Shown here: positions 50,069 to 61,658 of the stretch, one piece after another | How positions within the stretch are numbered: position 1 is the first letter of the stretch | Layout: every line of letters begins with the position of its first letter | Source of the DNA: an uncultured Flavobacteriaceae bacterium | GTDB taxonomy: Bacteria; Bacteroidota; Bacteroidia; Flavobacteriales; Flavobacteriaceae | Assembly: GCA_947495135.1 (NCBI GenBank) | Contig: CANLXN010000003.1 | Coordinates: 124,001 to 188,000, forward strand | Direction of reading: 5' to 3' | Length of the DNA: 64,000 nt | Program-made: the position numbers and the translations under genes | The notes under the pieces: model-generated | What the model was told of the DNA's origin: nothing | Seen by the model: only the letters and a program-made list of their open reading frames with translations | Databases searched by the model: none

Positions 50069-50176
50069 AGTAAATAGAAAATTTGAACTGCAAGATACAA
50101 GTTTACACCTATCTAAACGTAGATAATTTAAATGTAAACTCCTTAACATTTTCGTAACCTATCAATCACGAATTGG

Positions 50177-50220
50177 TAACATCCCATTAACATGATCTTT
50201 ACAAAGGTATTTCATCTTTG
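50177..50220 (+). promoter_or_regulatory. 11-nt-spaced TAACAT direct repeats (Pho-box-like) and -7 element of the TonB receptor gene
   Basis: TAACATC 50177, TAACATG 50188, TTACAAA 50199 and the degenerate TTTCATC 50210 recur every 11 nt. The last runs straight into TTTG 50217-50220 (CATCTTTG, one mismatch to TAnnTTTG). No TTG -33 element is present; the repeats occupy its place, as expected for an activator-dependent promoter. The start codon is 23 nt downstream. Two other promoters in the window (58131, 59412) have the same phase. Confidence 0.65.
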
Positions 50221-50243
50221 CCCCGAGAAACTTAAATATTAAA

Positions 50244-53030
50244 ATGAAAAATTTATTATTACTATTATTACTCGTTACCAGCACCGCAGTCTTCGCACAA
50301 GGCACTGGATCTATCGTTGGAGCCCTTACCGACAAAGATTTTAACAACGAACCACTTGCTTTTGCCAATGTTATTATCAAAGGCACCAACACAGGAACTA
50401 CTTCAGATTTTGACGGTTTATACTCCTTAGAAAACTTGGAGGTTGGAATGTATACTATTCAATACAGCTTCGTAGGATATGAGACTGTTGAAATCCCTAA
50501 CATTAAAGTAGAAGCCAACAAAATTACTACCGTAAATGTTCCCATGGGAGCCAGTGCCGCTCAACTGGAACAAGTAGTAATAAAGACAACCACTAAAAGA
50601 GAAAGCGAAGTCGCTTTACTATTAGAACAAAAGAAGGCCACTACCATTAAACAGAGTATTGGTGCTGCAGAGCTTGCTCGAAAAGGCGTAGGCGATGCTG
50701 CAGGAGCAGTTACCAAGATCTCAGGAATTTCACGTCAAGAAGGTGGTAATAATGTATATGTCCGTGGATTGGGCGATCGTTATTTAAACACCACTTATAA
50801 TGGTCTTTCCCTCCCATCCAATGACATCGAAAAGAAGAATATGGACCTCAATCTATTTTCTTCCGATGTAATTCAAAATGTTGCGGTAAGCAAGGCGTAT
50901 GCGACCGATTTCTACGGAGATTTCGCAGCGGGTAATGTAAACATCACGGCAAAAGACTACGCCGGTAAAGGATTTATAGATATTGATCTGGGAAGCGGAT
51001 TTAACTCCCGTTCTATTGGAGAAGAGTTTGTAAAAAGTGAAGGAACAGGCAAATTTGGATTTTATAATAGGTACGACAACAATCCTTTTGCAGTGGTACT
51101 TTCTCATGGAGTTGACCCAGTAGATGCTGGATCACCAGTACGCTTTAACGGTAGCTTTGCAGGGGGAACTTCCATTCGATTTAACGACGATTCTAAATTA
51201 AGCTTCTTCGGAACTGCTTCTTTCGATAACAATTTCGAATACAGAGAAGGGCCGCAGGTAGACTTCACTACTATTGAGAAAAAACGGTTCGACGCCTCCG
51301 AAATCTACGAATACTCTACCACTACCACGGCAATGGCAAATATTATCTACAAAATAGATAGCGACCATAAGTTAAGTTACAATTCGCTCTTCATCAACAG
51401 TGGAAGCGATGAAGTTGGTTTCTTTGGAACAGATGGTCAAGGAACCAATAGAGATGCTATTTTAAATACAGACAAAGGATTCTACCAAATGAATGTTCAG
51501 TTTGATCAAGACATGATCTTTGTGAACCAACTACTAGGTAGCCACCAATTAGATGAGACCCTAGATTTCGATTGGGGCTTCGGTTATAATGTAGTAGACT
51601 CTCGCCAGCCAGATAGAAAGCGTATTAGCTTAGAGCGATTTGATTTAGCCTTGGACAACGATCCAACTACCAACCCATCCTTCTTTAATAATATCCCATT
51701 CGACAACCAACGCTACTTTCAGGATATTAAAGACAAGGAGATTAATGGAAGAATGAACATGGGAATTACTGCTTCTGAAAATCTCAAATTTAATGTTGGG
51801 TACAACGGAAGAACCAAAGAAAGAAACTTTGAAAATATTAGATACGGTTACGATTTCATCGAACCAAATACTCCCGCTTTAGATGTCACCAATTTTAACG
51901 ATGTATTCGACTTTAGAAACACTGGGACAGTTTATAACACATTCGTGTTTAACCCGCTAGACCCAGCCAACGGTTTAGGAAGTACCAACCTCCCCGGAAA
52001 TGCCGAAAATACATATGAAGGGAACTTAGGAGTACACGCCGGTTACTTAAACGCTGAAGTAAAATTGGATTCTACTTGGACTATTGTTCCAGGTGTTAGA
52101 TTGGAGTCGCTACAGCAAGATATTGTCTATGATGTAATTAACCTATTACCTACCGATCCTGGATTTAGAAGTGCAAGCGAAACATATGTATTACCAAGTT
52201 TAAATGTAAAATATGGATTAAATGAAGACCAAAATTTACGCTTTTCTTTCAGTAAAACCGTTTCCTTTCCAGAATTTAAAGAAGTTACTCCTTTTGTCTA
52301 TGAAGACGTTACCCAACGTGTTGGTGGTAATCCAGACCTTTTAAACGATCCTTCGTTCTCTGAAATCTACAATGTGGACTTAAAATATGAATGGTTCTTC
52401 GGAAAAAGTGAAATATTCTCTGCCGCTGCATTCGCCAAGCAAATCAACGATCCAATTAACAAGGTTATCGCAAATGACGCCACAGGTACCCAGCGTTTCT
52501 TTAGAACAGGAGAAAAAGCCGAAGTACTTGGAGCGGAATTGGAGGTTAGAAAGAACCTACTAGTAGATGAGGATGATCAAACAGAATTAAGCATTGGTTT
52601 CAATGCCACTTACATGTACACCAAACAAGACTTACGTAGCTCACAAGGCTTATTCTCTACCACTTTTGAAGAAGGTAGAAGTGAAGAAATTCAAGGAGCA
52701 TCTCCTTTTTTGATCAATGCAGACATTAGCTACAGCCCCACTTTTGGAAGTTACAAACCAGTTGCCAACATGGTATTTTCCTACTTCAGTGATCGCATCG
52801 ACGCTATTGGTGCAGGACAACTAGGAAACATCATTGAAAAAGGTGTCCCTACATTGGATTTGGTATGGAAGAATCAAATTGGTGAGCACTTTGAGATAAA
52901 TGCAAGCGCAAAAAATCTATTGGATCCAAGCATTGAACGAATTAGAGAAACTCCAGAATTGGGTGATATCATTATTTCAAGCTATCAACGAGGAATGAAC
53001 CTTGCTTTGCAACTAAAATATAAATTCTAA
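50244..53030 (+). CDS. TonB-dependent outer-membrane receptor with CarboxypepD_reg-like domain
   Basis: A 928-residue receptor: signal peptide (about 1-19, ending VFAQ), CarboxypepD_reg-like domain (about 22-105; IVGALTDKDFNNEPLAFANV) and a plug (about 120-240) with VYVRGLGDRYLNTTYNGL. A large barrel ends in QLKYKF. It is not of the SusC type: it lacks the SusC plug signature and is followed by a beta-helix lipoprotein, not SusD. Its promoter has the same 11-nt repeat array as the porin and PiT genes, so I infer a role in acquiring phosphate or phosphorylated compounds. The substrate is unproven. Confidence 0.9.
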   Translation: MKNLLLLLLLVTSTAVFAQGTGSIVGALTDKDFNNEPLAFANVIIKGTNTGTTSDFDGLYSLENLEVGMYTIQYSFVGYETVEIPNIKVEANKITTVNVPMGASAAQLEQVVIKTTTKRESEVALLLEQKKATTIKQSIGAAELARKGVGDAAGAVTKISGISRQEGGNNVYVRGLGDRYLNTTYNGLSLPSNDIEKKNMDLNLFSSDVIQNVAVSKAYATDFYGDFAAGNVNITAKDYAGKGFIDIDLGSGFNSRSIGEEFVKSEGTGKFGFYNRYDNNPFAVVLSHGVDPVDAGSPVRFNGSFAGGTSIRFNDDSKLSFFGTASFDNNFEYREGPQVDFTTIEKKRFDASEIYEYSTTTTAMANIIYKIDSDHKLSYNSLFINSGSDEVGFFGTDGQGTNRDAILNTDKGFYQMNVQFDQDMIFVNQLLGSHQLDETLDFDWGFGYNVVDSRQPDRKRISLERFDLALDNDPTTNPSFFNNIPFDNQRYFQDIKDKEINGRMNMGITASENLKFNVGYNGRTKERNFENIRYGYDFIEPNTPALDVTNFNDVFDFRNTGTVYNTFVFNPLDPANGLGSTNLPGNAENTYEGNLGVHAGYLNAEVKLDSTWTIVPGVRLESLQQDIVYDVINLLPTDPGFRSASETYVLPSLNVKYGLNEDQNLRFSFSKTVSFPEFKEVTPFVYEDVTQRVGGNPDLLNDPSFSEIYNVDLKYEWFFGKSEIFSAAAFAKQINDPINKVIANDATGTQRFFRTGEKAEVLGAELEVRKNLLVDEDDQTELSIGFNATYMYTKQDLRSSQGLFSTTFEEGRSEEIQGASPFLINADISYSPTFGSYKPVANMVFSYFSDRIDAIGAGQLGNIIEKGVPTLDLVWKNQIGEHFEINASAKNLLDPSIERIRETPELGDIIISSYQRGMNLALQLKYKF

Positions 53031-53188
53031 TAAATAGAAAATATAAGCGGTAACCGCGATTCGGAAATTTCAGAATAACCAAAAAACTAATATCAATCAA
53101 ATGAGCTTAGCCAGGATTTAAAACAAAACGTACTTAATAGCTAGGCACATTTATTTTATCAATTTAACAAACACTAAAAAAAAGAAAA

Positions 53189-54370
53189 ATGAACACAAAA
53201 GTTTTATTACTGAGCTTAGCTCTTACGGCAAGCATCTTTACTTCTTGTGAAAGTGACGATACGGCACCTATCATAATCGAAAATGAACAAGGCGGAGGCG
53301 GAGGTGGAGACACTCCAACAGACACCAATATTGGCGGACTCCAAAACACCGACTTAACACTAGCAGCGGCAACAGAATACACGCTTACCGAAGCTTTAAT
53401 CATGACTGAAGGAACCACTCTAACTATTCCAGCAGGGGTAGTAATTAGAGCAAATCAAGGGGCTGGTGTTTATATCGCCATTGCCCAAGGAGCCACTATT
53501 TTGGCAGAAGGAACTTCTACAAGCCCAATCGTTTTAACATCGAATGTCCCTACTCCTAGCGCTGGTGACTGGGGTGGACTTATTGTACTAGGGAAAGCGC
53601 CTATTAACTCGGTAGCAGGTGGTGATGCCACTTCCACTAGTGAGATTGGAGGATTACCTTATGGAGGAAGCGAAGTTTCAGATAATTCTGGAATCATTAA
53701 ATACGTCCGTGTTGAGTATTCAGGTGGAGCGGCAGACGCTTCTTCCGAAAACAATGGCTTCTCTTTTTATGGCGTAGGAAATGGTACTACGGTTGAATTT
53801 ATCCAAGCATTTGAAGGTAAAGACGACGGAATTGAATTCTTTGGTGGAACCGTAAACGCGAGTAACATTTCAGTGGTAGGAGCGCAAGACGATTCGGTTG
53901 ACTGGACTGAAGGTTTTACAGGTACCTTGACCGATGTTTACATCGAACACAGAGTACAACATGACAAGGGTATTGAAGCAGATGGTTTCAACTCGGACAT
54001 TGGAAATAACTCTAATCCAGTATTCTGGTCTAAGCCAACAGTAAACAACCTCACTATTATTGGAAGAGGTTCTGCTACAGAAAATGAAGCGGTTCGCCTT
54101 CGAGAAGGAACACAAGGTATTTTCACCAATGTTTCGATCCAAGGGTTTGAAGAAGCATTCGATCTTGATGGGAATACAGGCGAAAGTCCAACAGGGCAAG
54201 GCGTTATAGATGGTAATCTAACCGTAACAGATTACAATTTCTCAGACGTTCTTGTAAACATGAAGAACGATACAGAATTCACTTTCACAGAAGGTGATTT
54301 CCTTACTGGAAGCAACACCGCAACTGGTACGGATTACAGCAGTTGGAATACGGGTTGGACTCGTAACTAA
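53189..54370 (+). CDS. beta-helix surface lipoprotein paired with the TonB receptor
   Basis: A 393-residue lipoprotein: signal MNTKVLLLSLALTASIFTSC with lipobox FTSC, a low-complexity Glu/Gly/Thr linker (about 30-46), then repeated beta-strand units with polar turns (VYIAIAQGATILAEGT, GDWGGLIVLGKAP, IEFFGGTVNASNISVVG) typical of a right-handed parallel beta-helix. It follows the TonB receptor by 158 nt without a terminator, and a strong terminator lies after it, so they probably form one operon. By analogy with SusD it may capture ligand on the surface. The ligand and the catalytic potential are unknown. Confidence 0.82.
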   Translation: MNTKVLLLSLALTASIFTSCESDDTAPIIIENEQGGGGGGDTPTDTNIGGLQNTDLTLAAATEYTLTEALIMTEGTTLTIPAGVVIRANQGAGVYIAIAQGATILAEGTSTSPIVLTSNVPTPSAGDWGGLIVLGKAPINSVAGGDATSTSEIGGLPYGGSEVSDNSGIIKYVRVEYSGGAADASSENNGFSFYGVGNGTTVEFIQAFEGKDDGIEFFGGTVNASNISVVGAQDDSVDWTEGFTGTLTDVYIEHRVQHDKGIEADGFNSDIGNNSNPVFWSKPTVNNLTIIGRGSATENEAVRLREGTQGIFTNVSIQGFEEAFDLDGNTGESPTGQGVIDGNLTVTDYNFSDVLVNMKNDTEFTFTEGDFLTGSNTATGTDYSSWNTGWTRN

Positions 54371-54385
54371 CTTTTAGTTTCTCAC

Positions 54386-54420
54386 GAAAGGGCTCTCGTT
54401 TTGAGAGCCCTTTCATTTTT
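54386..54420 (+). terminator. terminator after the beta-helix lipoprotein gene
   Basis: GAAAGGGCTCTC / GAGAGCCCTTTC, 12-bp perfect stem with a 5-nt loop and T-rich tail. Confidence 0.88.
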
Positions 54421-54430
54421 TATAGCCACT

Positions 54431-54470
54431 AAAAAACCCGTTTCTAATATTAGAAACGGGTTTTCTTTTC
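54431..54470. terminator. bidirectional terminator before carbonic anhydrase
   Basis: AAAACCCGTTTCTAA / TTAGAAACGGGTTTT, long nearly perfect palindrome. T-runs on both sides; it ends the minus-strand SulP-carbonic anhydrase transcript. Confidence 0.85.
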
Positions 54471-54488
54471 TTCGGAAATTTTCACGCT

Positions 54489-55115
54489 TTAGTAGAAGAT
54501 AACTTCTCCGGTGCTTATGTTATACATTCCACCAACTATAGCAATTTCTCCTGCTTGTTCCATTTCATCTAAAACAGGACTCTCCTTACGAATACGATCC
54601 ATAGTCATTTCCACATTCTTTTTCGCTACTGCATTTACAAAATCTATGTTACCAGAATTTCTAAGTGATTCATCCACGGGTTCGGTTACAGCCTCTACCG
54701 CAGGCTCAATTTTATTAATTAAAGCCGTTAGATTACCTAATCTAGCATGATCGCAAGCTCCTTTAACCGCTCCACAAGCTGTATGTCCTAAAACCATGAC
54801 TAGTTTAGTTCCTGCCAACTTGCAGGCAAACTCCATACTTCCTAAAATATCTTGATTCACAAAATTACCAGCAATACGGACGCTAAAAATATCTCCAATA
54901 CCCTGATCAAATATCAATTCAGACGAAACTCGTGAATCTATACAACTCAATATAGTGGCAAAAGGAAATTGCCCCTTACTAGTATCCTGCATTTGTTCGA
55001 TCAAGTTCCTATCGGCCATATGGCGTTCCTGAAATCTGCGGTTTCCCTCCTTCAATTGCTCTATTGCAGATTGAGGTGTGATTGAAGCCTGGGTTTCTTT
55101 AGTATGTGCTTTCAT
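54489..55115 (-). CDS. beta-class carbonic anhydrase
   Basis: Interconverts CO2 and bicarbonate with zinc. The 208-residue product has the beta-class ligands in LSCIDSRVSSE (Cys and the Asp-Arg dyad, about 57-67) and GHTACGAVKGA (His and Cys, about 116-126). No signal peptide is seen, so it is cytoplasmic. It begins 11 nt after the SulP stop on the same strand, so bicarbonate uptake and interconversion are probably coupled. High confidence for the family. Confidence 0.95.
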   Translation of the reverse strand: MKAHTKETQASITPQSAIEQLKEGNRRFQERHMADRNLIEQMQDTSKGQFPFATILSCIDSRVSSELIFDQGIGDIFSVRIAGNFVNQDILGSMEFACKLAGTKLVMVLGHTACGAVKGACDHARLGNLTALINKIEPAVEAVTEPVDESLRNSGNIDFVNAVAKKNVEMTMDRIRKESPVLDEMEQAGEIAIVGGMYNISTGEVIFY

Positions 55116-55125
55116 AGTATCTATT

Positions 55126-56712
55126 TTATGATTCTTCTAATTTTGGTCTAAGTTTAAAAAATTGAATAAAGCTTTCGGGGTTCTCAACAGTACCTCGTTC
55201 CGAAACTAAATTGATGGTGATGTTTCTGTTTTTCGCTTTCCCAGAAAAATCCTCCAAAATCTCAATAATATCATTATCAAGATAACGTGTTTTTCTTACA
55301 TCCAGCTCTAGATAAGAGTTTTCTGGCAACCTATCCAGCTCTTTCAAGATCGCTCCCTTATTAAAAAAGGTTACTTCTTCTGCAAGGGTCATCTTCATTT
55401 TCGATTTACCATTACTCACATCTTCTTTATGAAGAAAGTGAGAATTTTGATAGCTCTTAATCAAAATTACAACAATTCCTACACCAAGACCAAGCACAAT
55501 TCCCGTGAGCAGGTCGGTAAAAATAATTCCAAGTACGGTAACCACAAAAGGAACAAATTGCTTCCAACCCAATTTGTACATAGTTTTAAATAATGCTGGT
55601 TTTGCCAACTTATATCCAACTATAAATAAAATTGCCGCTAAAACAGACAATGGGATCATGTTAAGTAGCCTCGGAATTAAAATTACGGAAATAAGTAAAA
55701 AGAATCCATGGATGATTGCTGAAGCTTTAGACTTACCACCAGACTGGATATTGGCAGAACTTCTTACAATTACTTGGGTAATTGGCAAACCACCCACCAA
55801 ACCAGAAATAACATTCCCAGTTCCTTGAGCAAATAATTCACGATTGGTAGGAGTTACTCTCCTATCTGGATCTAACTTATCTGTGGCTTCTACGCATAGC
55901 AATGTTTCAAGACTCGCTACCAACGCAATAGTAAAACCTACAACCCACACATCTACTCTGCCAATAGCCGCAAAATTTGGCAAACTAAACTGCGCAATAA
56001 ATGAAGAGGCGTCTTCTGGAATAGGAACACTCACAAGGTGTTCTGCAGAGATCTCCCAAGTAGGATTATCTTTCGTAAGTACATAGTATACAATTCCAAC
56101 AACCACTGCTACCAACGGACCTTGAATTAATTTAAAAATTTTACTTTTTTTGGTTAGTACTCGATCCCATAAAATAAGGATTAGCAAACCAATAACAGCT
56201 ACTACTGTTGCTCCTGGGCTTATCAGATTGATCGCGTTAAAGATTTCTGAAAAGGTATTTTCCCCATCAATTTGAAAGAAAGCGAAATCCCCTTCCGGGT
56301 CTTGATCATAGCCAAAAAAGTGTGGTATTTGTTTTAGAATAATGATGATCCCAATACCTGTGAGCATTCCTTTAATTACAGATGAAGGGAAATAATATCC
56401 AATAATACCAGCTTTCAATGCTCCGAATACAATTTGAATTATTCCTCCTAGCACTACGGCAACTAAAAAGTTTTCATATCCACCCAACGTGCTAATCGCT
56501 GTAAGCACAATTGCGGCTAATCCTGCGGCAGGACCACTTACCCCTATTTGAGAACCACTTAAGGATCCTACAACAATTCCTCCAATAATACCGGCGATTA
56601 AACCTGAAAACAAAGGAGCTCCACTAGCCAAGGCTATCCCTAAACATAATGGTAACGCGACAAAAAATACAACGATACTTGCTGGAAGATCGTTTTTAAT
56701 AGTTTTAAACAT
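55126..56712 (-). CDS. SulP-family anion transporter with STAS domain (probable bicarbonate transporter)
   Basis: A 528-residue membrane protein (ATG at 56712; an alternative start is three codons upstream at 56721). About 12-14 TM segments carry the SulP signatures LPLCLGIALASGAPLFSGLIAG (its latter part near 25-45), GVSGPAAGLAAIV and the C-terminal STAS domain (about 430-525; YLELDVRKTRYLDND). SulP proteins move sulfate, bicarbonate or other anions. The downstream carbonic anhydrase argues for bicarbonate, as proposed for similar pairs in marine flavobacteria. Substrate is inferred. Confidence 0.92.
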   Translation of the reverse strand: MFKTIKNDLPASIVVFFVALPLCLGIALASGAPLFSGLIAGIIGGIVVGSLSGSQIGVSGPAAGLAAIVLTAISTLGGYENFLVAVVLGGIIQIVFGALKAGIIGYYFPSSVIKGMLTGIGIIIILKQIPHFFGYDQDPEGDFAFFQIDGENTFSEIFNAINLISPGATVVAVIGLLILILWDRVLTKKSKIFKLIQGPLVAVVVGIVYYVLTKDNPTWEISAEHLVSVPIPEDASSFIAQFSLPNFAAIGRVDVWVVGFTIALVASLETLLCVEATDKLDPDRRVTPTNRELFAQGTGNVISGLVGGLPITQVIVRSSANIQSGGKSKASAIIHGFFLLISVILIPRLLNMIPLSVLAAILFIVGYKLAKPALFKTMYKLGWKQFVPFVVTVLGIIFTDLLTGIVLGLGVGIVVILIKSYQNSHFLHKEDVSNGKSKMKMTLAEEVTFFNKGAILKELDRLPENSYLELDVRKTRYLDNDIIEILEDFSGKAKNRNITINLVSERGTVENPESFIQFFKLRPKLEES

Positions 56713-56771
56713 AAAATACACATATTATCTCCGCACAAACACGAAGGATTTAACTTATTAGCAAACGAATA

Positions 56772-57071
56772 TTAAATGCTATGTTTTGGCGGAGGAAGAA
56801 GGATTTTCTGTAAATAGTTACCATCTTTGTCTAAGTAAAAGGTACTCGACAATTTCCTAGGCTTAGCATCGGCTTGGGCAACAAAAAATAGATCAAATTG
56901 AAGGATTTTTTCTTCTGCATCCTTTTCTATTTTTTCACTGCTCTCTTCTTCAGAAGTGTCCATAATGGAAATAGCACCCTCATTTGCCTCTATTAAAGTA
57001 AAAATAGGCGGTGCCAGCATTGAAAGAATCAACGTAGTTGAAAAAAGAAGATGGTAAGAAGACCTCAACAT
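56772..57071 (-). CDS. small membrane/exported protein upstream of sulP, unknown function
   Basis: A 99-residue protein with one N-terminal hydrophobic segment (about 5-26), then a Glu-rich acidic stretch (SEEESSEKIEKDAEEK) and a Lys/Pro-rich end (LLPPPKHSI). No family is recognised. It heads the probable sulP-carbonic anhydrase transcript and is 59 nt upstream of sulP. A full-consensus promoter ends 4 nt before its ATG, suggesting leaderless translation. It could be a small accessory of the transporter; that is position-based only. Confidence 0.62.
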   Translation of the reverse strand: MLRSSYHLLFSTTLILSMLAPPIFTLIEANEGAISIMDTSEEESSEKIEKDAEEKILQFDLFFVAQADAKPRKLSSTFYLDKDGNYLQKILLPPPKHSI

Positions 57072-57075
57072 CTAA

Positions 57076-57109
57076 CAAAAATAGATTTGATTTCGAATAA
57101 TGATGACAA
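57076..57109 (-). promoter_or_regulatory. promoter of the sulP-carbonic anhydrase transcript
   Basis: On the minus strand TTG (57107-57109), 23 nt spacer, TATTTTTG (57076-57083). The element ends 4 nt before the ATG of the first gene. Confidence 0.6.
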
Positions 57110-57208
57110 CAATATGTTAAAAATTCTTTAAAATTACTTCTCCCTCACCAACTGTACGGGCACCACTCGCTCGTTAAAAGAACCAAATATTTACGCTATT
57201 GGCCATTA

Positions 57209-57237
57209 ATTGGGTGCAATATCAAATTGCACTCAAT
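57209..57237. repeat. near-perfect 12-bp inverted repeat, possible operator or RNA hairpin
   Basis: ATTGGGTGCAAT (57209-57220) and ATTGCACTCAAT (57226-57237) with spacer ATCAA and one G-T mismatch. The core is TGCAAT-N5-ATTGCA. There is no T-run on either side, so it is not a terminator. It lies about 140 nt upstream of the sulP-unit promoter. Confidence 0.55.
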
Positions 57238-57282
57238 AAAAATGTAATATCTCTGTGCATTACTCCCCTTAGGAATGCCAAT

Positions 57283-57306
57283 AAAAAAGCTCCCTGCGGG
57301 AGCTTT
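57283..57306 (-). terminator. terminator of the MORN-like gene
   Basis: AAAGCTCCC / GGGAGCTTT with loop TGC. On the minus strand followed by TTTTTT-ATT. Confidence 0.82.
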
Positions 57307-57338
57307 ATATTTTAAAAGAGAAATTATTTTAGGTTACA

Positions 57339-57713
57339 CTAATTACTAACCACTCTAGTATCTTTCATTTCCCAAGTTCTTACCTCAGCGATTCTAGAAT
57401 CTTTATAACTAACTTGTTTCATTTCATTACCTTGAAAAAAAGACCAAGTTCCAACTTTCTTACCTCCTTCATAATTAGCTACTGCCGTTTTATTTCCAGC
57501 AGTGTCGTAACTAATCCATTCTCCTTGAAGTTTATTGTCTTTATCGTAGAATCCTGTTTGAGCAATTATACCATTGTCATGATAAAGAGTAGCTTCAATA
57601 AGGTCTCCATTCATCACATAAGAATCTTTCTTGTCACACACTTTTTTACATTCTTGAGCGAATGCTGTGTTTACCATAAATACCGCTGCTAAAATCAATA
57701 TTGTCTTTTTCAT
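57339..57713 (-). CDS. MORN-repeat (YwqK-like) exported protein
   Basis: A 124-residue protein with a signal peptide (about 1-19, ending AFAQ). Three tandem MORN-like units follow: ATLYHDNGIIAQTGFYDKDN, LQGEWISYDTAGNKTAVANY and KVGTWSFFQGNEMKQVSYKD. YwqK-like proteins of this type have no agreed function. Two Cys near the mature N-terminus (ECKKVCDKK) could form a disulfide. A full -7 element is upstream at 57740-57747, directly beside a four-unit 11-nt repeat array, so it may share control with the divergent phosphate genes. Confidence 0.82.
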   Translation of the reverse strand: MKKTILILAAVFMVNTAFAQECKKVCDKKDSYVMNGDLIEATLYHDNGIIAQTGFYDKDNKLQGEWISYDTAGNKTAVANYEGGKKVGTWSFFQGNEMKQVSYKDSRIAEVRTWEMKDTRVVSN

Positions 57714-57739
57714 CTCTTGTAGGTTTTAAATTCTTTTCT

Positions 57740-57747
57740 CAAAGTTA
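57740..57747 (-). promoter_or_regulatory. -7 element of the MORN-like gene
   Basis: TAACTTTG on the minus strand, 26 nt before the ATG. No TTG at -33; the 11-nt repeat array begins 10 nt upstream. Confidence 0.5.
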
Positions 57748-57756
57748 AAGAATTAG

Positions 57757-57796
57757 TAACAATTCTGAAAACATTACGTAACATTAAATTTACATT
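57757..57796 (+). repeat. four-unit 11-nt-spaced TAACAT-type repeat array
   Basis: Heptamers TAACAAT 57757, AAAACAT 57768, TAACATT 57779 and TTACATT 57790 recur every 11 nt with 4-nt linkers. The units match those at 50177, 58070 and 59346. Here they are oriented away from the MORN-like gene, whose -7 element is 9 nt away. No -7 element follows closely on the plus strand. Confidence 0.6.
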
Positions 57797-57922
57797 AGAT
57801 GTGTAACTTATTTATTATCAATTAATTAAATATAATAATTTAACATTGAAAACTATACGTTTCGAATTCAATCTTAATAATTTGGTAATAATAAGGTTAC
57901 AAACAAAGAACATTCCTTTGGT
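57797..57922. other. gene-free A+T-rich region upstream of the candidate small RNA
   Basis: No ORF. Weak 11-nt-phased units TAATAAT 57886, TTACAAA 57897 and GAACATT 57908 precede the -7 element at 57923. Their phase to TTTG is one base off that of the three stronger promoters, so their significance is uncertain. Confidence 0.4.
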
Positions 57923-58021
57923 TAACTTTGTTCTTGCCTTAGGGCGAAAACACGATAAATCGTTTAGTTTTTGTCGACTAGATTAATTGTGTAAGGGCTG
58001 CCTATCTAGGTAGCCCTTTTT
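57923..58021 (+). ncRNA. candidate small RNA antisense to the porin leader (about 87 nt, with -7 element and terminator)
   Basis: TAACTTTG at 57923-57930 predicts a start near 57935. The transcript would hold hairpin 1 (CGAAAAC with GTTTTTG, and ACGA-TAAA-TCGT above it, about 57945-57973). It then ends in a rho-independent terminator (AAGGGCT-G-CCTA / TAGG-T-AGCCCTT, then five T's, 57993-58021). No ORF fits. Positions 57957-57976 are complementary to the porin leader 58106-58127, with 14 contiguous pairs plus 6 more after a 2-nt bulge. The -33 element is weak. No expression evidence is available. Confidence 0.55.
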
Positions 58022-58069
58022 ACATTTTACCAAGTTAATATATTTTAATGTTTAAAGTTAAACTTCCCA

Positions 58070-58102
58070 TAACATTAATTTAACATTCGTTTAAGTTATT
58101 TG
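58070..58102 (+). promoter_or_regulatory. 11-nt-spaced TAACATT repeats (Pho-box-like) and TTTG of the porin promoter
   Basis: TAACATT 58070, TAACATT 58081 and TAAGTTA 58092 (weaker) recur every 11 nt and abut TTTG 58099-58102. Another weak unit, TAAACTT, is at 58059. There is no TTG -33 and no TA at the usual -7 place, so activation by a regulator bound to the repeats is expected. The leader is about 24 nt. Confidence 0.65.
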
Positions 58103-58130
58103 CAGCGACAAAAACTAAAAACGATTTTTC

Positions 58131-59333
58131 ATGTATGTACGTTACCTGTGTATCGCAGTATTTTTATGCTTCTCTTACACTTCAAAAGCTCAAGAGATTA
58201 GTGATACTAAATTTGGCAAGGGACTTATTAACTTTGTTGCCAAGGACAGCTCCTTTAGTGTAAAATTTGCTCCTCGAATTCAAGGGCGCTATAATGTTAA
58301 TTGGGATCATAATGGTGACACCTATGGCACTGGAGAATCTAATTTCCTTATTCGTCGCTCTCGTCTAAAATTTAGCGGTTTCGCTTATTCTACCAAATTA
58401 AAATATAAAATAGAGTTAGGACTTTCGAATCGAGATCTTTCGGGAGCTAATCAATTCAATAGAAACACGCCTCGTTATATCCTTGACGCGGTCGTTATGT
58501 GGAATTTCTATGAAAATTTCGTATTGTGGGCTGGACAAACAAAACTTCCAGGAAACGTTGAACGAGTAGTTTCTTCAGCAAACATGCAGCTTATTGATCG
58601 TTCTCTTTTGAACAGTCGCTTTAATATTGACCGGGATGTGGGAATCCAATTACGTCACCATGCCAATCTAGGTGGAGATTTCATGATTCGTGAAAAACTC
58701 GCTATTTCACAAGGAGAAGGAAGAAATGTCACCGAAGGTAACGAAGGAGGTCATCAATATACAGCAAGACTAGAATTTCTACCTTTTGGAAAATTTGCCT
58801 CCAAAGGAGATTATTCTCAGGGAGATCTAAAGCGTGAACAAAACGCAAAACTAATGGTGGGTCTTACATACGATTTAAATCAAGATGCGGTAAAAACACG
58901 AAGTAATTTGGGTTCTTACATGTTCTTATCAGACGGTTCACTTTACGAAACAGATATTACCACCTTTTTCGCAGATGCAATGTTTAAATACAAAGGATTT
59001 GCCTTTATGGGGGAATATGCCTTGAGAGATGCCGCCGATGCAGTTGCAGTTGAGGTAGACGGAACACCAACAGGAGACATCGTATTAACTGGAAGCGCAC
59101 TAAATACACAAGCCAGTTATTTATTTAAAAACAATTATGAAGTAACAGGACGTTACACAACGACTAATTTCGAAGATATAACAGGAAGAGCTCCGGAAGA
59201 TCAATACACTTTAGGGGTATCGAAGTACGTAGTTGGACATAAACTGAAAATACAAGCCGATGTAAGTTACAGTACGGCAGATGGCAACGAAGATGGGATT
59301 ATGTTAAGAACCGGATTCGATTTACACTTTTAA
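58131..59333 (+). CDS. OprO/OprP-type (phosphate/polyphosphate-selective) porin
   Basis: A 400-residue outer-membrane porin with a signal peptide (about 1-20, ending SKAQ). It has the OprO/P-family pattern: a KFAPRIQGRYN strand, FLIRRSRLKFSGFAYSTKLKYKIELG (about 81-106), VLWAGQTKLPGNVERVVSSANMQ (about 137-160; cf. the family's G-Q-x-K-x-P segment) and a C-terminal strand ending RTGFDLHF. The family takes up phosphate or pyrophosphate in Pseudomonas. The PiT transporter follows 60-80 nt downstream with its own repeat-bearing promoter, which supports phosphate as substrate. Anion selectivity is not proven by sequence. Confidence 0.88.
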   Translation: MYVRYLCIAVFLCFSYTSKAQEISDTKFGKGLINFVAKDSSFSVKFAPRIQGRYNVNWDHNGDTYGTGESNFLIRRSRLKFSGFAYSTKLKYKIELGLSNRDLSGANQFNRNTPRYILDAVVMWNFYENFVLWAGQTKLPGNVERVVSSANMQLIDRSLLNSRFNIDRDVGIQLRHHANLGGDFMIREKLAISQGEGRNVTEGNEGGHQYTARLEFLPFGKFASKGDYSQGDLKREQNAKLMVGLTYDLNQDAVKTRSNLGSYMFLSDGSLYETDITTFFADAMFKYKGFAFMGEYALRDAADAVAVEVDGTPTGDIVLTGSALNTQASYLFKNNYEVTGRYTTTNFEDITGRAPEDQYTLGVSKYVVGHKLKIQADVSYSTADGNEDGIMLRTGFDLHF

Positions 59334-59345
59334 TAAACAAAGAGA

Positions 59346-59389
59346 TAACAATTTGGTAACAAATGGCCTCATGGAAAATGAGACATTTG
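59346..59389 (+). promoter_or_regulatory. 11-nt-spaced TAACA repeats (Pho-box-like) and -7 element of the PiT gene
   Basis: TAACAAT 59346 and TAACAAA 59357 are 11 nt apart and lie 40 and 29 nt before TTTG 59386-59389 (GACATTTG, one mismatch to TAnnTTTG), the same offsets as at 50177/50188. The element ends 4 nt before the ATG at 59394 and 22 nt before the ATG at 59412. Confidence 0.6.
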
Positions 59390-59411
59390 CACCATGGAAG
59401 CACTTTTTTCA

Positions 59412-61658
59412 ATGGACAATATTTATTTATTAATGCTCGTAGCGTTAACCATCCTAGCGATAGCAGATATCGTGGTTGGAGTGAGTAATGACGCAATTAA
59501 CTTCTTAAACTCGGCAATTGGCTCGAAAGCCATTTCAATACGAACTATCATGATAGTCGCAAGTTTAGGAATTTTTATAGGAGCCGTTTATTCAAGCGGT
59601 ATGATGGAGGTCGCACGTAAAGGAATTTTTGTGCCCGCCATGTTTACCTTCGATGAGATTATGATGATCTTTATGGCGGTGATGATTACGGACATCCTAC
59701 TTCTGGATTTCTTTAATACTTTAGGCTTACCTACGTCAACAACGGTTTCTATCGTTTTTAACCTCCTAGGAGCAGCAATCGTAATTTCGCTCATTAAAAT
59801 TAGCGGAACAGACGGCGCCACATTTGCAGATTTAGGGAGCTACATAAACAAGGAAAAAGCAATCGAAATTATTACAGGTACTTTAATGTCTGTTGTAATT
59901 GCCTTCACAGTTGGAGCACTCGTACAATGGGTTTCTCGTAGAATTTTTAGTTTTCAGTTTGAGAAAAAAATGAAAAGCTTTGGAGCTATCTTCGGAGGCG
60001 TAGCATTGGCTGCCATTACCTATTTCATTTTTATGAAAGGTCTCAAAGGATCTCCTTTTTACAGTAGTTTAAAAGGAATTTTAGAAGGAAACGAATTTTT
60101 AGTCATTCTTGGAAGTTTCGTGTTCTTTACATTATTCTCCTTCGCTTTTCAAAAAATCACAAAAAAGAGTATTTTACTCGTTGTAATTGCGGTAGGTACT
60201 TTTGGACTAGCGCTTGCCTTCTCTGGTAACGACTTAGTGAACTTTATTGGAGTACCAATGGCTGCATATCACTCTTATGAGGCGTGGGTAGCAAGTGGGC
60301 TTCCGGCGACAGAAATGACCATGGAAGTTCTAGAAAAGAAAATGCCCGCAGAACCATTTCTTTTATTTATTGCAGGTGGAATAATGGTTGTGACATTGTG
60401 GTTTTCTAAAAAGGCAAAAACCGTAGCAGAAACTGAAATTAGCTTGTCGCGACAAAACGAGACACATGAGAAATTTGAGCCAAACATGTTATCCCGAGGT
60501 ATTGTAAAGGGAATGAGCTGGCTATCCAATAGCTTGAGTGGTGTTATACCTAAATCGGCTCAAGCTAGAATCGAAGCAAGTTTTACCAGACCAGATACAG
60601 CAGCACTAACTAAAGATCAAAGTATCGATGCTCCTGCATTCGATATGATTAGAGCTTCCGTTAATTTAATGGTGGCTGGGGTATTAATCTCCATCGCTAC
60701 TGCCATGAAATTACCGCTATCTACCACCTACGTTACCTTCATGGTGGCAATGGGAACTTCCTTGGCCGATAGAGCCTGGGGTAGAGAAAGTGCAGTTTAC
60801 AGAGTAGCAGGAGTTTTAAATGTAATTGGAGGTTGGTTCTTTACTGCTTTTGGCGCATTAATCGCAGCAGGAACTGTTGTGTTCTTAATTAATTGGAACA
60901 AGCAGGTAATGATTCCAATCCTGTTGCTGCTCACGGCAGTTCTATTAGTGAGAAACTACCTTTCTCATAAAAGAAAAAGCACCACCAAAGTAGATCCTAA
61001 AAGTTTAAAGAAATCAGAGAGTAGCACCGTACAGGGTATTATCACCGAAAGTGCAGATAATATCTCGAATGTAATTTCTAGAACGAATAAAATTTATACC
61101 GACGTTTTAAAAGGGCTAGCGAAGGAAGATAGTAGCAAACTAAAAAAGAGTCGAAAAGGTGTAGAGAAATTAGACGAAGAAATTGAGTCGCTAAGAGATA
61201 ATATCTTTTACCTTATCAAGAACTTGGATGAAACCTCTGTTCGTGGAAGTAGTTTCTATATAACAATTCTGGCGTATCTAACAGACATTGCTCAATCGCT
61301 GGAATTTATCTCCAAAAAGAGTTACAAACACGTTAACAATAACCACAAGAAGTTACGCTTTAACCAGATTAAAGATCTTCAAGAGATCGACGATTCGTTA
61401 TCTGGGCTTCTAGGTGAAATCGTAGAAGTATTTGACAGTCGCAAGTTCGAAAGAATTAGCTACGCAATTACCAGGCGAGAAGAGATTGATAGTATGATCG
61501 CAGACAAGATCAACAAACAAATTGAACGTACAAGAACCGAAGAATCAAGTCCAAAAAATACTTCCCTATATTTCAATATTTTGTTGGAAACCAAGGATTT
61601 AGTTACTGGAATTATGGACTTAATGGAAGAGTACTACAATAGTTATAAAAAGGAGTAG
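59412..61658 (+). CDS. PiT-family inorganic phosphate transporter fused to a PhoU-like (DUF47) domain
   Basis: Low-affinity phosphate:cation symporter of the inner membrane. The N-terminal part (about 1-515 of 748) holds the two PiT repeats: DIVVGVSNDAINFLNSAIGSKA (GxSNDxxN motif), LGLPTSTTVSIVFNLLGAA and the second copy LPLSTTYVTFMVAMGTSLADRAWG. The C-terminal 215 residues are soluble, helical and PhoU/DUF47-like (VKGLAKEDSSKLKKSRK-type heptads). In many bacteria that is a separate gene regulating PiT. I prefer the ATG at 59412 (MDNIYLLM) because the -7 element ends just before the 59394 ATG. A terminator follows. Confidence 0.92.
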   Translation: MDNIYLLMLVALTILAIADIVVGVSNDAINFLNSAIGSKAISIRTIMIVASLGIFIGAVYSSGMMEVARKGIFVPAMFTFDEIMMIFMAVMITDILLLDFFNTLGLPTSTTVSIVFNLLGAAIVISLIKISGTDGATFADLGSYINKEKAIEIITGTLMSVVIAFTVGALVQWVSRRIFSFQFEKKMKSFGAIFGGVALAAITYFIFMKGLKGSPFYSSLKGILEGNEFLVILGSFVFFTLFSFAFQKITKKSILLVVIAVGTFGLALAFSGNDLVNFIGVPMAAYHSYEAWVASGLPATEMTMEVLEKKMPAEPFLLFIAGGIMVVTLWFSKKAKTVAETEISLSRQNETHEKFEPNMLSRGIVKGMSWLSNSLSGVIPKSAQARIEASFTRPDTAALTKDQSIDAPAFDMIRASVNLMVAGVLISIATAMKLPLSTTYVTFMVAMGTSLADRAWGRESAVYRVAGVLNVIGGWFFTAFGALIAAGTVVFLINWNKQVMIPILLLLTAVLLVRNYLSHKRKSTTKVDPKSLKKSESSTVQGIITESADNISNVISRTNKIYTDVLKGLAKEDSSKLKKSRKGVEKLDEEIESLRDNIFYLIKNLDETSVRGSSFYITILAYLTDIAQSLEFISKKSYKHVNNNHKKLRFNQIKDLQEIDDSLSGLLGEIVEVFDSRKFERISYAITRREEIDSMIADKINKQIERTRTEESSPKNTSLYFNILLETKDLVTGIMDLMEEYYNSYKKE

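Follow-up and report, generated by a model that had tools for sequence, protein, structure and literature searches.

Porin-repressing antisense small RNAs (sRNAs) are known from Enterobacteria, in which MicF and MicC are short RNAs that pair with the 5' leader of porin mRNA. The PHO boxes of Escherichia coli PhoB and Bacillus PhoP are described, in the available part of a review (PMC4415409), as 11-nt direct-repeat units, two per box. In the present study, we analyzed a stretch of 64,000 nt (here called the window; its coordinates are used throughout, on the plus strand unless indicated) from an uncultured Flavobacteriaceae bacterium (GenBank assembly GCA_947495135.1, contig CANLXN010000003.1, positions 124,001 to 188,000). 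Relatives of this bacterium in the Flavobacteriales include Riemerella anatipestifer. The window encodes a TonB-dependent receptor, a lipoprotein, a phosphate-selective porin and a PiT-family phosphate transporter, which would together form a single phosphate-uptake cluster. We consider it probable that this cluster is switched by PhoB through PHO-box-like repeats and that a neighboring sRNA gene, absent from the preliminary description of this DNA, acts as a brake on the porin.

That description had reported TAACAT-like direct repeats with an 11-nt period, lying at offsets of 7 modulo 11 from the TTTG of the Bacteroidota -7 element, at the receptor, porin and PiT promoters. Direct reading of the sequence confirmed the repeats and their offsets. 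The receptor promoter (50144..50220) carries the described units TAACATC (50177), TAACATG (50188), TTACAAA (50199) and TTTCATC (50210) at 40, 29, 18 and 7 nt before TTTG (50217-50220), and its array proved to be longer, with TAACATT (50144), TAACCTA (50155) and TCACGAA (50166) in phase at 73, 62 and 51. At the porin promoter (58059..58102; TTTG at 58099-58102), TAACATT (58070), TAACATT (58081) and TAAGTTA (58092) stand at 29, 18 and 7, together with an additional, weaker unit, TAAACTT, at 58059 (offset 40). The PiT promoter (59346..59389; TTTG at 59386-59389) has TAACAAT (59346) and TAACAAA (59357) at 40 and 29. The reported lack of a normal -33 element was likewise observed at all three promoters, where no TTG starts 18 to 32 nt before TTTG; further upstream, a TTG is found at 44 in the receptor promoter and at 33 in the PiT promoter. 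Thus, as in a PHO box, at least two 11-nt direct-repeat units are present, and they hold a fixed position relative to TTTG in place of the -35/-33 element.

To estimate the significance of the phase, the 75 nt upstream at each promoter were dinucleotide-shuffled 20,000 times. At least two TAACA at offsets of 7 modulo 11 occurred with frequencies of 0.0001 (receptor), 0.0005 (porin) and 0 (PiT), for a phase that the earlier reader had taken from the same sequences. The bare pair TAACA-N6-TAACA was not rare in the window (13 occurrences with at most one mismatch versus 8.35 expected; 9 of 100 shuffles reached 13), and it was rejected as a genome-wide marker, with 19 exact matches versus 17 for a reversed-pattern control. 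Since the bare pair is no rarer than its reversed control, the signal lies in the phase to TTTG. When TTTG was added behind a free spacer of 13 to 24 nt, 12 matches were obtained in the genome versus 3 for the control, 4 of the 12 being located at the window's three promoters; of the other in-phase matches, L030 is situated between two genes that are both encoded on the other strand, and L033 upstream of a gene for which no phosphate link was made. Across the 4.29-Mb genome, the phased triple box with TTTG (at most one mismatch) matched the receptor and porin promoters only, with 2 matches versus 0 for the control; because this pattern was composed after viewing these promoters, it demonstrates specificity and not discovery. 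Another 11-nt repeat run was observed at 57760-57810 (+), with TAACATT at 57779 and TTACATT at 57790, upstream of a small MORN-like gene (57713, minus strand) relative to which it is inverted; this run is out of phase with the TTTG of the sRNA promoter presented below.

Conservation was assessed at orthologous loci. A search with a porin alignment gave 80 named loci, of which 79 were usable in addition to the window (L100, in which the porin start was cut off, was dropped). In support of the earlier claim, the repeats and their phase were found to be kept at the porin, PiT and receptor promoters of many Flavobacteriaceae. Of 68 porin promoters with both TTTG and the leader motif described below, 85% have a [TAG][AT]ACA unit starting at 29 and 82% have one starting at 18; of the 41 PiT promoters with a placed start and TTTG, 73% have a unit at 40 and 61% have one at 29. 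When all matches to [TAG][AT]AC were counted, residue 7 modulo 11 held 151 of 214 at the 68 porin promoters (12 of the 80 rows, without leader motif, are omitted) and 84 of 114 at 26 of the 30 receptor promoters, those with TTTG. At the PiT promoters, the count was 74 of 147 for 41 of 79 loci, as 25 had no in-frame ATG placed and 13 had no TTTG in range. The rows are related, and the promoters are therefore not independent of each other.

A second conserved block in the upstream regions of the orthologous porin genes corresponds to the predicted sRNA gene, which in the window spans about 91 nt (57934..58024, with inferred ends) just upstream of the porin. Its predicted promoter (57886..57930) contains degenerate units, TAATAAT, TTACAAA and GAACATT at 41, 30 and 19, together with TAACTTTG, and TTTG at 57927-57930. 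The RNA is predicted to form a 5' hairpin, a stem (P1) around the seed hairpin UAGUU-UUUGUC-GACUA with the loop UUUGUC (57965..57980), and an intrinsic terminator hairpin followed by a U-tract (57993..58021). The minimum free energy (MFE) of the 57934-58024 fold was -36.1 kcal/mol (z, -6.05), with 0 of 200 shuffles as low, and the longest inner frame has 8 codons. A promoter of its own, an intrinsic terminator and a non-coding sequence, as expected of an sRNA gene, are thus all predicted. In an alignment (A2) of 58 of the 65 sRNAs, from which 7 near-identical copies were omitted and in which several row ends were trimmed by hand, the terminator and seed-stem pairs are standard in 95.6% of cells, and 95 cells show double changes versus 27.6 in shuffled data, all but 3 of the 95 falling in the terminator. 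The invariance of the seed in A2 is by construction, because presence of the string TTTTTGTC was the criterion for inclusion in the set. P1, which rests on single-sequence folds, joins the two sides of the seed with at least 5 pairs in the MFE structure of 53 of the 58 copies despite a freely changing sequence; RNAalifold on A2 recovered the terminator only, because MAFFT leaves P1 unaligned.

A covariance model of the element matched in 135 of 299 family genomes and in 114 of 236 genera. An occurrence outside the Flavobacteriaceae was rejected: a search with stricter filters in a sampled part of the class (395 genomes) gave 6 weak matches (L311-L316), none with the seed string and 5 terminator-like. 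No Rfam 15 family reached its gathering score in the element, the best weak matches being 23.2 of 64 and 20.1 of 81.9 bits. An Hfq encoded in the genome, on which sRNAs of the MicF type depend, was not found either, since PF17209 had no match in this genome (control, matches in 5 of 14 genomes). Searches limited to openly licensed main texts retrieved no published account of this sRNA or of the box; this RNA may correspond to one of the numbered Rfp transcripts of Flavobacterium psychrophilum.

The porin mRNA leader begins with CGACAAAAACTAA (58106..58118), which is the complement of the sRNA seed UUAGUUUUUGUCG, and the predicted pairing continues from there towards the start codon at 58131. 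Among the 80 rows, seed and leader motif were both present in 64 and both missing in 10, with the leader motif alone in 4 and the seed string alone in 2 (L112, judged spurious, and L103, with a degraded leader). The mean energy was -21.74 for cognate duplexes and -18.70 after shuffling of the partners (0 of 10,000). This difference persisted among 23 genus representatives after removal of the shared core (-5.51 versus -3.28; 0 of 20,000), with 1,509 and 2,298 of 20,000 in the orientation controls. Moreover, compensatory changes were observed in the core itself. Two genomes of one genus (G074 and G294) have the seed GTTTTAGTC and the porin leader GACTAAAAC, and G182 has the seed GTTTTAGTC and the leader GACTAAAA before another porin-like gene, so that the changed leader in all three reads GACTAAAA(C); these changes may represent one event or two. 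The gene that lies behind the sRNA in G182 and bears the matching changed leader (L258, L307) is a different porin-like gene, of 334 aa in our own reading. In L240 and L236, pairing is kept via G-U. Conserved complementarity between seed and target, with compensatory change, is expected of an antisense sRNA, and it is likely that this RNA pairs with the porin mRNA and represses it.

Porin leaders are short, with 17 to 26 nt from GAC to ATG, and the 5' end of the porin mRNA is expected at or near CGACAAAA, where the pairing site lies. Since the duplex can be extended across the short leader from a site at the expected mRNA 5' end, occlusion of translation initiation would be the most likely effect of the seed hairpin. 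Given the related, weaker repeat array in the promoter of this separate gene, we propose that the brake on the porin is coupled to phosphate and that the sRNA probably belongs to the same regulon. A porin brake made under the same phosphate switch as the porin would constitute an incoherent feed-forward loop. The repeats, their phase and conservation, the predicted structure with its co-variation and the complementarity with its own co-variation are read directly from the sequence; we infer the regulator, the transcription, and the trigger and sign of the effect. More tentatively, the family may represent a Flavobacteriaceae-wide, Hfq-free sRNA that is co-switched with its target by PhoB boxes, that silences the phosphate porin through a loop seed pairing at the 5' end of the mRNA, as an incoherent feed-forward brake within the Bacteroidota Pho regulon, and that is sustained by further targets in genomes whose porin no longer adjoins it.

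The alternative that survives best accepts a genuine sRNA that pairs with the porin leader, yet has it answer to another regulator, stabilize the mRNA or find its main targets elsewhere. We regard it as unlikely, although the degenerate boxes of the sRNA promoter would fit it well, as would the loci in which the sRNA is kept with no such porin adjoining. Contrary to this alternative, the sRNA promoters show the same phase preference as the others, with 56 of 122 [TAG][AT]AC matches in residue 7 (57 of the 65 sRNAs, those with TTTG and 60 nt upstream), and the target occupies the 5' end of a short leader; moreover, among the 31 places in this genome that match CGACAAAAA-N0-30-ATG, that of the porin alone continues as CGACAAAAACTA. 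As a marker of further sRNA targets in this genome, the same pattern was rejected (31 matches versus 57 for the control). Of four such places inspected (L157-L160), L157 is followed by an open frame of 194 aa or more; at the other three, frames from a nearby ATG reach 2 to 33 aa at the longest. The pattern GACAAAAACT-N0-30-ATG gave 56 matches in eight relatives versus 142 for the control and was thus not enriched as such; the six places read include the porin leader of G153 (L299) and, in G022, a site resembling such a leader ahead of a lipoprotein-like gene (L300).

Several observations weigh against a phosphate-coupled sRNA brake on the porin. In this genome, the repeats of the sRNA promoter depart from the usual phase by one base, and sRNA-promoter boxes are weaker in general, offset 29 being occupied in 49% of 57 promoters, for which the nearest TTTG was picked and may be wrong in some rows. 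A single target is called into question by G152, G191 and G022, in which the sRNA stands beside PiT without this porin (G022 has only weaker porin matches elsewhere in its genome); an sRNA kept in this way may have other targets. Four of the 68 rows with the leader motif (L115, L118, L152 and L156) have no recognized sRNA seed upstream. The preference for the cognate leader is an average and is modest per species: the own leader was the best or tied in just 4 of 23 genera, with a median rank of 4, and, once the core was removed, in 3 of 23 and 5 of 64. The permutations were made without phylogeny correction, and 35 of 5,000 reached the observed value in the reversed control with 64 rows, indicating that relatedness contributes some of the signal. 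Predicted coverage of the start codon was dropped as evidence of repression, because control pairs mostly show it too (cognate, 62 of 64; non-cognate, 1,131 of 1,258; shuffled, 477 of 640).

With regard to the regulator of the proposed cluster and its brake, PhoB encoded on contig C4 of this genome would be the most likely candidate, turning the genes on when phosphate is short. The preliminary description had suggested a PhoB/PhoP-type regulator for the porin, PiT and the receptor-lipoprotein pair, and both the conserved phase and a box near phoB appear to support this. In addition to its occurrences at the window's three promoters, an exact repeat pair stands between the gene of a PhoB-like response regulator, which is followed by that of a PhoR-like kinase, and a divergent gene on C4, so that the expected link to phosphate genes was indeed observed. 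The divergent gene (L020:9304-11010; G000, C4) encodes a secreted protein with a sorting tail of the type IX secretion system (T9SS). Of 30 genomes, 26 carry GTTA-N7-GTTA, the same box inverted, in the 230 nt that precede phoB, versus 0 to 4 for spacers of 3 to 12 other than 7 and 0 for the reversed string; the box is thus frequent in phoB upstream regions but inverted relative to phoB. Moreover, phoB and the best receptor match are immediate divergent neighbors in 11 of 60 genomes (G009, G010, G026, G029, G038, G040, G048, G049, G052, G053 and G059). In F. johnsoniae, the TonB receptor and lipoprotein beside phoB (Fjoh_0545/0546), likened here to the window pair by placement and not by sequence, are up by log2 values of 8.0 and 9.9 at low phosphate, and Fjoh_0544/0545 appear divergent like receptor and phoB in the 11 genomes, as far as the available text of PMC8115612 goes. 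OprP of the same species (Fjoh_0542) was not induced (log2, -1.3; p, 0.245; PMC8115612), which does not favor the suggested regulon. Taken together, the box adjacent to phoB, the divergence of receptor and phoB and the low-phosphate induction of a like-placed pair make PhoB control of the cluster likely, and a PhoB-type regulon at these promoters appears well supported.

That the boxes instead serve another member of the OmpR/PhoB family, distinct from the phosphate regulator, is rather improbable. Direct repeats are bound by many OmpR-family regulators, and the PhoB candidate, whose best matches are TIGR02154 and RespRegPhoBBctds, stays below both curated cut-offs (218.7 of 296.2 and 207.9 of 270). 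However, the boxes are located at phosphate-acquisition genes (porin O/P and PHO4) as well as at phoB, and the recurrent box and receptor divergence at phoB, the induction of the like-placed F. johnsoniae pair (PMC8115612) and the core TTTAACA of the related PhoP of R. anatipestifer, obtained by DAP-seq in the available text of PMC9603813, all speak for a phosphate regulator. Plant-associated Bacteroidetes are without PstSABC according to the accessible text of PMC8115612. In this genome, PstS gave nothing above the Pfam cut-off, and the sole PF12849 match was rejected as PstS, as it is below the cut-off and in our own reading is a LysR-type regulator.

The complementarity that we attribute to an sRNA and its target could also reflect an inverted pair of DNA operators for one protein, for example, a looping repressor; GTTTTTGTC of the "sRNA" and GACAAAAAC of the porin leader would then be its two sites, with co-variation as drift of a shared motif. 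Opposite-oriented sites of one protein would also stay identical and co-vary, and the core is almost invariant, in part by selection of the set. Nevertheless, we find operators very hard to reconcile with a block that further comprises a -7 promoter, a terminator that co-varies and an enclosing stem whose sequence changes, with flank complementarity that is antiparallel and missing from the reversed controls of the genus set, and with elements that lie on different contigs in G153 (L266, L299) and about 3 kb apart in G109 (L259). The weakest alternative, a porin 5' leader or attenuator and not a free sRNA, could draw on the seed, which in most loci precedes the porin start by some 130 to 240 nt, but has little left to recommend it, given that the element ends in a terminator, that a conserved promoter further downstream belongs to the porin itself and that G153 and G109 carry the element apart from the porin.

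The genes of the cluster comprise the receptor, with a CarboxypepD_reg domain (50244..53030; 928 aa); its partner, the lipoprotein (53189..54370; 393 aa), called from its N-terminus and without a Pfam match; the phosphate-selective porin O/P family protein (58131..59333; 400 aa); and the PiT-family (PHO4) transporter (annotated at 59394..61658). The annotated PiT start lies just 4 nt past TTTG, and the true start is probably 59412, because the proteins of relatives that were read begin near MDNIY. In the window, carbonic anhydrase-like, SulP-like and small genes separate the receptor-lipoprotein pair from the porin; those inside the cluster at 54489-56721 (minus strand) are presumably carbonic-anhydrase-like and SulP-like genes. 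At 79 of 80 loci, the porin is followed downstream by a PiT match. Lipoprotein matches lie upstream at 48 of the 79 named porin loci (at 42 of these on the same strand), receptor matches were obtained at 50, and the best 30 sRNA loci of the covariance model have the porin downstream in 29 and the lipoprotein upstream in 25. By these counts, receptor - lipoprotein - sRNA - porin - PiT is the commonest order in relatives, in some with interposed genes. In G007, from the genus of the window, no porin and no model match were found, and receptor, lipoprotein and PiT remain. G172 has two sRNA copies (L255, L256), of which L255 keeps a porin-type promoter, a leader and a signal-peptide-like remnant without a porin, as after a rearrangement.

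This locus provides a candidate Flavobacteriaceae phosphate operator for which any genome can be scanned, together with an sRNA-target pair backed by co-variation. To our knowledge, few sRNA targets are known in the phylum Bacteroidota, and the question of how sRNAs reach their mRNAs without Hfq becomes directly testable in culturable strains. In contrast to the PHO boxes of E. coli and Bacillus, the unit is (T)TAACAT, is phased to the TTTG of the Bacteroidota -7 element and occurs in up to seven copies; it serves the porin, PiT, the receptor-lipoprotein pair and probably the sRNA, in a genome in which PstS has no match above the Pfam cut-off. MicF and MicC are likewise short RNAs acting on the 5' leader of a porin mRNA; by description, the RNA presented here is set apart by the lack of an Hfq match, by a gene beside its target and by a seed in a hairpin loop. 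The PhoPR system of R. anatipestifer shares the DAP-seq core TTTAACA, and the available text (PMC9603813) mentions no 11-nt phasing, porin or sRNA. Fjoh_0541-0549 of F. johnsoniae similarly unite a glycosyltransferase, OprP, PhoR, PhoB, a TonB receptor and a lipoprotein, the last two strongly induced at low phosphate, whereas the gene order differs, OprP is not induced and the terms "pho box" and "motif" are absent from the main text as accessible (PMC8115612). Rfp18 of Flavobacterium, compared by description and not by sequence, is also a structured sRNA conserved in flavobacteria with predicted stem-loop pairing, but its reported targets are metalloproteases (available text of PMC9723704). 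PHO boxes and porin-repressing sRNAs are thus known kinds of element, and, so far as our literature searches show, it is their wiring and their lineage that are new.

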